Assembly (NCBI GenBank): GCA_902386135.1
Contig: CABMIB010000041.1
Span: 1 to 41,027 of the forward strand
Length of the DNA stretch: 41,027 bases
DNA from: an uncultured archaeon
GTDB lineage: Archaea; Halobacteriota; Methanosarcinia; Methanosarcinales; Methanoperedenaceae
Reading direction: 5' to 3'
A program made the translations under genes and the position numbers. Under the pieces are notes generated by a model. That model searched no databases and had not been told where the DNA came from. It worked only from the letters and a program-made list of their open reading frames with translations. Shown one piece after another: positions 1 through 4,355 of the stretch; positions within the stretch are counted from its first letter, which is position 1; the number at the start of each line of letters is the position of its first letter.

Positions 1-157
1 ACTCTGCTTTGATATCTTTTATATCCTGTTTAAGCTGTGTTACATCCTCTATAACATGATCAAGCTTTTGTAATATCCTGCCAGCTTTAAGGCTAATACC
101 TGCAATCGTTATCACTACACCAAAAATCGGGATTAAATCAAAAACAGTTAAGGTCAA
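1..157 (-). CDS. Small membrane/coiled-coil protein, C-terminus outside window
   Basis: The reading frame runs off the left edge of the window. The likely start is TTG at 157, which overlaps the TGA stop of the 36-residue gene upstream in a TTGA arrangement, implying translational coupling. The visible 52 residues have a hydrophobic stretch (about 3-20, including LIPIFGVVITIAGI) and then a charged helix (KLDHVIEDVTQLKQDIKDIKAE) with heptad-like spacing, so it is probably a membrane-anchored coiled coil. The charged half recurs as a broken copy at 1006-1167. I do not recognise the family. The TTG start and membrane topology are inferred. Confidence 0.5.
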   Translation of the reverse strand, partial: MTLTVFDLIPIFGVVITIAGISLKAGRILQKLDHVIEDVTQLKQDIKDIKAE

Positions 158-264
158 GGTATTAATCCAACAATTTTACCAATCATCCACAACACAATAA
201 TTGCTATACCCAGCCATATTAAAACGTCTGTATAATCAAATTTATATGTCTTTTCTGTGGTCAT
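154..264 (-). CDS. 36-residue single-span membrane peptide
   Basis: A short complete frame of 36 codons plus stop starting with MTTEKTYKF. Residues 14-35 form one hydrophobic helix (VLIWLGIAIIVLWMIGKIVGL), with a polar N-terminus. Its TGA overlaps the TTG start of the downstream coiled-coil frame by four bases, typical of a real two-gene unit. The ribosome-binding site is weak (an AAGATAG-like stretch). Function unknown. The case rests on the coupling and on the clean membrane segment. Confidence 0.45.
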   Translation of the reverse strand: MTTEKTYKFDYTDVLIWLGIAIIVLWMIGKIVGLIP

Positions 265-317: not shown

Positions 318-463
318 CGCGCCGCGGATTGCTGGAACCCGGAATCACCGAAGCCCGCGCGGTTCCTGATATGGACAGCGCCTGGGAATTCCCGTCAAGG
401 CTTGCTTGAACCTGCCGATAGACTCTTTTCGGGCTGCGCGTTCGCGCAGTTTTATGACGGCGC
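318..463 (+). repeat. 146-bp structured direct repeat, copy A (possible ncRNA)
   Basis: A GC-rich block in AT-rich surroundings, repeated at 818-963 with 13 differences in 146 positions by my count and identical over the first 53 bases. Read on the plus strand it ends in a hairpin, CTGCGC (434-439) with GCGCAG (444-449), followed by TTTT, like a Rho-independent terminator. A long-range stem AGCGCC (377-382) with GGCGCT (459-464) could close the 3' half. GGAACC and GGTTCC near positions 332 and 361 could pair in the 5' half. No convincing protein is encoded on either strand. It could be a small structured RNA gene or a MITE-like repeat. Confidence 0.6.
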
Positions 464-576
464 TATTTCGCAAGAAATAAATCAAAATTTCAGATACTGA
501 GAAACATACCTCTCCGGACACATATAACATTCTATAAACTGTTTTTCTTGATGTATAGGAAAGTATAAACGCATTT

Positions 577-759
577 TCACATCCCTATAAATTTAAGCAA
601 ACCGTAAACTAGCACCGCTGGCCAAACAATTGCTTTCAAAACTCCTAAAACACCCATCCAAAAACTATTTGCTGTCGAGATATAATAGATTGCAGCACCT
701 ATAAGACCAAGACCGTAAACCGCATCTCCTGAATGGCAATAATTCTTAAATTTTTCCAT
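577..759 (-). CDS. 60-residue membrane protein with strong Shine-Dalgarno
   Basis: Starts with ATG at 759, with a near-perfect AGGAGGTG ribosome-binding site a few bases upstream, which makes this small gene convincing. The protein has a short charged N-terminus (MEKFKNYCHSGDAVYGLG) and two hydrophobic stretches, about 15-32 and 34-56, with aromatic residues and the sequence GVLGVLKAIVWPAVLVY. I believe this type of ~60-residue hypothetical protein recurs in methanogenic archaea, but its function is not known to me. It lies exactly between the two copies of the 146-bp repeat. Confidence 0.75.
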   Translation of the reverse strand: MEKFKNYCHSGDAVYGLGLIGAAIYYISTANSFWMGVLGVLKAIVWPAVLVYGLLKFIGM

Positions 760-817
760 GTTGCACCTCCTTAGTAAAATTGGATTAGGAGTTTATAATC
801 TTTTTTAAAAACTATAA

Positions 818-963
818 CGCGCCGCGGATTGCTGGAACCCGGAATCACCGAAGCCCGCGCGGTTCCTGATCAGGATAGCGTCTGGAAATTCCCGTCAAGG
901 TTTGCTGGAACCTGCCGATAGATTCTTTTCGGGCTGCTCTGTCGAGCAGTTTTATGACAGCGC
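818..963 (+). repeat. 146-bp structured direct repeat, copy B (possible ncRNA)
   Basis: Second copy of the block at 318-463, offset by exactly 500 bp. The terminal hairpin is CTGCTC (934-939) with GAGCAG (944-949), then TTTT. Relative to copy A the fifth base pair changes from G-C to T-A with both partners altered, so pairing is kept; the remaining hairpin differences are in the loop. The possible closing stem is weaker here, with one G-T wobble and a mismatch at each end. The covariation favours selection for an RNA structure over a neutral repeat. Confidence 0.6.
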
Positions 964-1005
964 AAATTATTTCACAAAAAATAATTTTATCTTTTATTAA
1001 CTGCA

Positions 1006-1167
1006 CTATTTCCCACGAATCATAGAACTCATTTCCAGGCTCATCAGCCGTTCGCCATGGTCTTGCAGTTCAGCTTTGATATCTCTTATATCCTGTTTGA
1101 GTTCTGTTACATCTTCTATAACATGATCCAACTTTTGAAGGATCCTGCCTGCTTTCAAGCTTTTATC
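1006..1167 (-). pseudogene. Truncated copy of the coiled-coil gene
   Basis: In frame, this stretch encodes LKAGRILQKLDHVIEDV followed by a helix ending in SSMIRGK and a TAG at 1006. It is clearly homologous to the charged half of the protein at 1-157, at roughly 80% DNA identity over about 90 bases. An in-frame TAA lies at 1168-1170 and there is no good start codon, so the membrane half and start are lost. Together with the duplicated 146-bp repeat this points to a local duplication followed by decay. Confidence 0.6.
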
Positions 1168-3307: not shown

Positions 3308-3654
3308 TGGAATCTTTCTATCATGTATTTATCACTTAATATATTTTACCACTCCATCTCTCTATATCAGCGGTCAATTATTGTATATGAGCCAAGACGG
3401 GGCGCACCGTACGCGCAGCCAAAGATTTGGTTCATAATATAAAACATTCTATTCTGCTATTACTTCAGGATATTCACGTTTGTATGGTTGATCTCACCAG
3501 CCTCTCGGAGGGCATTAATAAAGGCAATGCTCACAGGGCTTGATGTGCTGAGGCGCAGATGAACAGAGCAAAGCCATTATCATGCCCATCCTGCGATGCG
3601 TTCGCACGAAGAACCGGCGCGGCATACACCGCGCTTTCAAGGTTTGAGATACAA
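3308..3654. other. Gene-poor spacer, possible transposon remnant
   Basis: About 350 bases without a convincing gene. The right part (3560-3654) is more GC-rich than its left flank and leads into the hairpin at 3655-3689. The composition shift and hairpin resemble the 3' end of an IS605-type orfB (tnpB) element, but I could not find a continuous TnpB C-terminus in any frame, so this is only a suspicion. Confidence 0.25.
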
Positions 3655-3689
3655 GCTGATGCCCCGCAAGCGGGGTGAAGGGCATCAGC
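3655..3689 (+). promoter_or_regulatory. Strong hairpin next to ribosome-binding site
   Basis: GCTGATGCCC (3655-3664) pairs perfectly with GGGCATCAGC (3680-3689). An alternative inner stem, CCCCG with CGGGG around a CAAG loop, lies inside. The hairpin ends two bases before the GGGAG (3692-3696) that would serve the gene starting at 3706, so it could affect translation. It could equally be the end structure of a decayed transposon. Confidence 0.5.
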
Positions 3690-3705
3690 CCGGGAGTTGA
3701 TCTAA

Positions 3706-3858
3706 ATGGTAACTGTTAGAATGAATGTTGAAATTCCAGACGACGCATACGAAGAATTTCTCGAAGAACTTGAAACTGATTCCTTTGTCCAGGTTACGTA
3801 TTATGCCGCCAGGCTCGGAGAGAACCGTGATATATCGCTATCTAAAATAGATAGCTAA
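3706..3858 (+). CDS. 50-residue hypothetical protein
   Basis: ATG at 3706 with GGGAG nine bases upstream. The sequence begins MVTVRMNVEIPDDAYEEFLE and is followed by an acidic helix and a short polar tail (ISLSKIDS). The strand-turn-helix look of the N-terminus (RMNVEIPDDAYEEFLEEL) resembles small ribbon-helix-helix or antitoxin-type proteins, but it is too short to assign. It is followed after 15 bases by another tiny gene with its own ribosome-binding site, so the two probably form a unit. Confidence 0.5.
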   Translation: MVTVRMNVEIPDDAYEEFLEELETDSFVQVTYYAARLGENRDISLSKIDS

Positions 3859-4061: not shown

Positions 4062-4355
4062 TCACTTAACATTCGCCAGCAAGTCCAGCCCCTTCTCATT
4101 CAGCCTGCAGTCCTCCCCTTCCACCTCTGCATAGCACATCTTCACAAGGTAATCAAGCTGGAACTTCAACTGCGGTTCGGAAAGCCCGAGTTCTTTCATT
4201 ATCTCCTTCTTCGTCTTCCCGAAAGCGCCGATGGATTTGATTATCTTCCTCCGCAGCGGGTTCTCAAGCGTTTTGAACATCAACTGGTGCTCGTGCGGCG
4301 TTCGTGTCTCGCAGGCTTCAGGTTCAGGCGGTAATGATTCAATATCATCCTTCAT
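4062..4355 (-). CDS. Winged-helix DNA-binding protein (ArsR-like)
   Basis: 97 residues with a disordered acidic N-terminus and a winged-helix domain from ~25 to the end. LMFKTLENPLRRKIIKSIG is the first helix pair, TKKEIMKELGLSEPQLKFQLDYL the helix-turn-helix, and CYAEVEGEDCRLNEKG the wing with the usual LNEKGLDLL ending. It follows rpe by five bases on the same strand and probably belongs to the rpa operon, so it may act on that operon or on DNA-damage genes. The specific target is unknown. Confidence 0.75.
   Translation of the reverse strand: MKDDIESLPPEPEACETRTPHEHQLMFKTLENPLRRKIIKSIGAFGKTKKEIMKELGLSEPQLKFQLDYLVKMCYAEVEGEDCRLNEKGLDLLANVK

Follow-up and report, generated by a model that had tools for sequence, protein, structure and literature searches.

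A lineage-restricted intergenic repeat with a covarying hairpin among the small genes of an archaeal cassette-like array

The window analysed here (the whole stretch of 41,027 nucleotides) is the entire contig C41. The genome to which it belongs (G000; 3.24 Mb in 120 contigs) is from an uncultured archaeon of the Methanoperedenaceae, probably of Methanoperedens type as judged by a gene content that includes coenzyme F430-type genes, multihaem cytochromes, an archaeal aIF5A and replication factor C. Positions 1-127 of the window match C64:1-127 exactly in reverse complement, as for an assembly-graph k-mer overlap, so the contigs C41 and C64 most likely abut. The joined locus carries an array of genes that are all co-directional, on the minus strand of the window (Table 1), in the order truncated coiled-coil gene, repeat B, 60-aa membrane-protein gene, repeat A, TM gene with the coiled-coil gene cc1, short core, second coiled-coil gene cc2, short core and ParE-type toxin pair. 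Up to the toxin pair, each array gene is followed by the full element or by its core. Most copies begin 8-108 nt behind a stop codon and leave about 54-73 nt to the next start codon; in the joined locus, about 54-66 nt separate each core from the start codon that follows. The four cores of the joined locus fall within ~1.5 kb, between co-oriented genes, and each array copy lies downstream of a minus-strand gene, as expected of an intergenic punctuating element. The link to small membrane-protein genes put forward in the original prediction is real and stronger than had been seen, the neighbours being small membrane and coiled-coil genes.

Table 1. Position of the repeats, their parts and the neighbouring genes on the window and on the adjoining contig C64.
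Feature	Position	Strand	Context	Support
Repeat A, full-length element	318..468	- (gene-sense)	between 60-aa gene and TM + coiled-coil pair	repeat search, covariance model
Repeat B, full-length element	818..968	-	between truncated coiled-coil gene and 60-aa gene	repeat search, covariance model
Core of repeat A, GGGTTCCAGCAATCCGCGGCGCG	318..340	-	3' end common with short C64 copies	
Core of repeat B, GGGTTCCAGCAATCCGCGGCGCG	818..840	-		
Hairpin of copy A, CTGCGC-GTTC-GCGCAG	434..449	plus-strand reading		
Hairpin of copy B, CTGCTC-TGTC-GAGCAG	934..949	plus-strand reading		
5'-truncated second coiled-coil gene copy	1006..1158	-	directly before repeat B	
60-aa small membrane protein gene	577..759	-	between repeats B and A	
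36-aa single-TM protein, first gene of TM + coiled-coil pair	154..264	-		
Coiled-coil gene cc1, 5' part	1..148	-	gene end at C64:195	
Short copy 1, element core only	C64:205-227		after cc1 end	
Second coiled-coil gene cc2	C64:290-607			
Short copy 2, element core only	C64:645-667		after cc2 end	
Antitoxin / ParE-type toxin pair	C64:730-1208			ParE_toxin, E 1.4e-8

The nearest relatives of the 60-aa protein are found in DPANN archaea, Bacteroidota and Patescibacteria, with about 60-80% identity over the best segment; among the best 80 listed, no entry bears the name of this archaeal group, and no viral relatives of the gene were found. The coiled-coil gene copies are themselves visible in the window as a direct repeat of 83% identity (3-101 and 1070-1168). 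Positions 1210-2580 of the minus strand encode a 456-aa protein of the same island, with a possible membrane segment, a coiled-coil-like C-terminal part and no confident family. An inverted, degraded second TM + coiled-coil pair is present at C64 1460-1900, split by a palindromic repeat of ~70 bp (AACCACAGAGTTCACAGAG...), and a further palindrome (CACCGCAAAGAACGCAAAGG...) lies near it.

Repeats A and B form one direct-repeat family in the repeat search (151 nt, 90% identity) with starts 500 bp apart, exactly the spacing that had been predicted. Over the 146 bp originally delimited (318-463 and 818-963), for which ~91% identity had been given, we count 13 differences, i.e. 133/146 or 91%, at positions 371, 372, 376, 381, 386, 401, 407, 423, 438, 440, 441, 445 and 459 of copy A. 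The element they represent is ~150 bp long, GC-rich and non-coding, and has a 3' core of 23-32 nt that also occurs alone. It contains GTTCCAGCAA twice as an internal repeat, and its ends show 6 bp of complementarity, GCGCCG/CGGCGC in A, with a wobble in B, and GCGCCC/GGGCGC in the copy of another genome of the genus (G016). Also as predicted, both copies carry a 6-bp hairpin followed by TTTT on the plus strand. The stem of copy A is formed by 434-439 and 444-449, and G438-C445 of A is replaced by T938-A945 in B. The changes at 440 and 441 fall within the loop.

No reading frame of the copies looks coding, in line with the original view that neither encodes a believable protein. In each of the six frames, most differences between A and B would be non-synonymous, and the minus-strand ORFs of the element have no match in Pfam. 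Two minus frames recur (...RAARKESIGRFQQTL... and ...KSLSAGSSKP followed by a stop), but indels between species shift the frame, and a protein-coding origin was rejected. An origin from a tRNA or its T-arm was also discarded, as ARAGORN finds none.

A covariance model built from the element copies was run over 31 genus genomes and over 186 genomes of the order. A and B, both members of the training set, score 174.5 and 172.7 bits, and full-length relatives were found only in two other species of the genus, G008 (contig C120, 143.8 bits) and G016 (contig C6, 142.3 bits). A partial relative on contig C95 of the genome studied here (93.6 bits) is well conserved only in its middle. BLAST found the two full-length relatives and the C95 copy independently (E 2e-22, 8e-16 and 3e-23). 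Three genomes hold the element, in four copies of full length and a partial one. The collection of homologues and the model that had been proposed as a check did yield relatives, and the likeness of A and B is far beyond chance, as judged by the model scores and by the further copies in G008, in G016 and on C95. The A/B pair stands as described, while its confinement to two copies does not, given these further copies and the ~25-nt end that is present twice on C64. No relative was found outside the genus in the 186 genomes of the order, among known phage and plasmid sequences, or in the surroundings of 80 relatives of the 60-aa gene. Two IMG/VR contigs with the core pattern appear to be chance matches, the model giving nothing convincing in the matched viral contigs, and pattern matches with three mismatches in the genus genomes G017 and G006 were judged by eye to be chance as well.

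The settings of these relatives differ. In G008, the terminal part of a cc2-like gene precedes the full element, which stands before a TM + coiled-coil pair, and a core follows directly after the pair. No array surrounds the copies of G016 and C95, the latter beside an IS630 remnant, indicating that the element can exist alone. The TM + coiled-coil family itself is present in 15 of the 31 genus genomes, with similar TM genes preceding the coiled-coil gene in many, and none of the flanks read outside G000 and G008 holds the element. Since the pair occurs without the element in many genomes and is duplicated in another way in G016, the element does not belong to the gene itself. On contig C34 of G016 (1070-2630) the pair stands in tandem as a 634-bp unit, flanked by an apparent surface-protein gene 3' end on the other strand and the region downstream of it, not by the element.

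The hairpin is present in A, B and the full-length G008 and G016 copies as a 6-bp Watson-Crick stem in which two pairs have changed on both sides across the three species. A stem with that many compensatory pairs was obtained in 3 of 300 column permutations, a figure for four copies in an alignment hand-edited at the hairpin, which favours the stem; as only three genomes carry the element, all such statistics rest on 4-5 copies. Given this covariation, the hairpin appears to be constrained. A compensatory change is no proof of RNA, because templated DNA repair can produce the same in a perfect palindrome. Apart from this strand-symmetric hairpin, stems kept in all four copies are in excess on the minus (gene-sense) strand, with 21 against 7.9 expected from column shuffles (reached in 0 of 100), and are not in excess on the plus strand, with 22 against 16 expected (16 of 100), with many of these stems overlapping owing to the internal repeat of the element. 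Compared with dinucleotide shuffles, the folding energy of the four copies shows no excess on either strand (z 0.0 to -1.3). Behind the hairpin the T-tract varies between species, reading TTCTTG in G008, TTCTC in G016 and TTTT in A and B only, and no intrinsic terminator was called on the plus strand at a scan threshold of 5 T in 8. Of the selected RNA structure with a terminator that had been proposed, the compensatory hairpin holds, and the terminator, whose T-tract is lost in the other species and which the scan does not call, does not. The comparison with Rfam, also part of the proposed checks, gave no match at gathering or relaxed thresholds apart from one chance match (E 2.6).

Self-comparison of the joined locus shows marks of duplication. 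The core and leader of the TM gene are homologous to the core and leader of cc2 (101 bp, 74%), and the 3' end of cc1 together with its core recurs after cc2 (49 bp, 90%). Furthermore, cores are alike within a genome, with AATCCG in 4/4 of the genome studied here and AAATGCG in 2/2 of G008. Taken together, these marks and the likeness of cores within genomes fit a history in which the sites duplicated or recombined repeatedly. On contig C25 of G008, the ortholog of the window gene at 4062-4355 is followed by unrelated DNA, without the island, and pieces of the island lie instead on a small G008 contig carrying a ParB gene, so that the island behaves like a variable and probably mobile segment. 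A 256-bp block of the window (3454-3709) travels with the same island, being 90% identical to G008 C120:6709-6964; otherwise it is found nowhere in the genus except for a 42-bp piece in G003, looks non-coding and has no Rfam match.

We believe that A and B are best explained as copies of a lineage-restricted intergenic element that punctuates a cassette-like array, the array having grown by recombination or duplication in a variable island, and we give this reading a probability of about one half. Judged from the sequence comparisons, the array may have grown and been shuffled by recombination between element copies, which could have proceeded by unequal crossing-over or by Campbell-type integration of a circle carrying the element and a gene. 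The hairpin would then more likely act on the gene-sense strand, as an end-of-transcript structure or as a structure of a recombination site. Several observations count against this explanation: the 60-aa gene lies 108 bp before repeat A, which is not tight, the G016 and C95 copies stand alone, only three genomes have the element, and the covariation of the hairpin is a constraint beyond what plain duplicated spacer DNA needs.

The element could also be a cis-acting control element of the co-oriented genes in minus-strand RNA or DNA, serving the 3' end or termination of the upstream gene or lying upstream of the next promoter. The regular spacing from stop and to start codons, the compensatory hairpin and the minus-strand excess of conserved stems would agree with such a role, which we nevertheless hold to be improbable, because the gene pair does without the element in other genomes of the genus, the folding energy is not below that of shuffles and the short copies have no hairpin. 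An undescribed structured RNA of the plus strand, ending in an intrinsic terminator, was the original suggestion. It could draw on the hairpin and TTTT of A and B and on a plus-strand stem that grows to 9 pairs in 4/4 copies once G-U is allowed, against which stand the unconserved T-tract, the lack of a terminator call and of an Rfam match, MFE z-scores of 0 to -1.3, and a plus strand with neither a conserved flank nor an excess of conserved stems. An independent plus-strand RNA gene is therefore not supported, and we regard this reading as highly improbable. It is unlikely, in our view, that the element is a non-autonomous, MITE-like transposable element or its relic, inserted several times in intergenic DNA. 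Copies in unrelated contexts (C95, beside the IS630 remnant, and G016) and the terminal complementarity of A, B (with wobble) and G016 would be in keeping with an insertion, but the terminal inverted repeat GCGCCG/CGGCGC is only 6 bp long, against about 10 bp or more required, and no target duplications were seen, the flanks of A and B sharing no direct repeat by eye. The original prediction had named a known IS or MITE end as the outcome that would speak against it, and neither adequate inverted repeats nor target duplications were found. Copy number is also very low, no copy stands beside an intact transposase in the 31 genus genomes, none was found in the order, in phages or in plasmids, and the copies follow the array genes more regularly than random insertion would allow.

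The arrangement of the array also recalls integrons, whose attC sites carry the boxes R'' (RYYYAAC) and R' (GTTRRRY) at their ends. If the element were a non-canonical attC-like site, a tyrosine recombinase could insert, excise and shuffle cassettes at its core, which would suit small genes on one strand that are each followed by a site of variable length with a conserved 3' end, as well as contents such as a toxin of ParE type and a 60-aa gene that has its relatives in other phyla. The core continues GCG-TTATAR in three of the four sites of this genome (3' ends are GTTATAR in B and in the two short sites, and GGCGTAG in A), and sites resemble each other more within a genome than across genomes, which has also been reported for attC sites of archaea (Ghaly et al. 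2022, PMC9668308). We still consider such a system quite unlikely here: no site of the joined locus has a RYYYAAC...GTTRRRY pair, A and the long G008 copy lack the GTT start, and a complementary left half is missing from the short sites. Pairing of the two ends amounts to 6 bp in A, B and the G016 copy, to 3 bp in G008 and to none in the short copies. A CALIN would have two or more attC sites spaced by less than 4 kb among co-oriented ORFs; the four cores lie within ~1.5 kb but are not recognisable as attC sites. In this genome the best score against the integron integrase model TIGR02249 is 110.7 bits, with a cut-off of 265, and in the genus only two incomplete MAGs exceed the cut-off, on contigs of 3.4-3.9 kb. 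These two genes (G029 C157 and G027 C5) could be bacterial contamination or stem from true archaeal integrons. The specific proposal that the ~25-nt core (GTTCCAGCAAtCCGCGGCGCG/TTATAR) is a recombination site where cassettes of small genes would be taken up and shuffled in Methanoperedens-type genomes and their extrachromosomal elements, integron-like and non-canonical, is in our opinion very doubtful.

If the array is truly shuffled at its sites, it would represent a route, distinct from the canonical integron, by which an archaeon gains small genes such as those for toxins and membrane proteins. Otherwise, the locus is a clear case of a lineage-specific intergenic repeat that mimics a structured RNA gene when a single contig is viewed.

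Among known systems, the tandem duplication on G016 C34 (634-bp unit) involves the same gene family, likewise duplicated with flanking DNA, and differs in that its flank resembles a surface-protein gene 3' end instead of this element. MITEs and other short intergenic repeats are similarly short, non-coding and hairpin-bearing, and occur at unrelated places in related genomes, whereas the element described here has no terminal inverted repeats or target duplications and is mostly tied to one array. Compared with the integron arrays and CALINs of archaea (Ghaly et al. 2022, PMC9668308), canonical attC boxes are absent, the short sites lack complementary halves and no integron integrase of this genome exceeds the cut-off, while short co-oriented ORFs with related non-coding sites between them, a patchy distribution, toxin genes and the likeness of sites within a genome are common to both.
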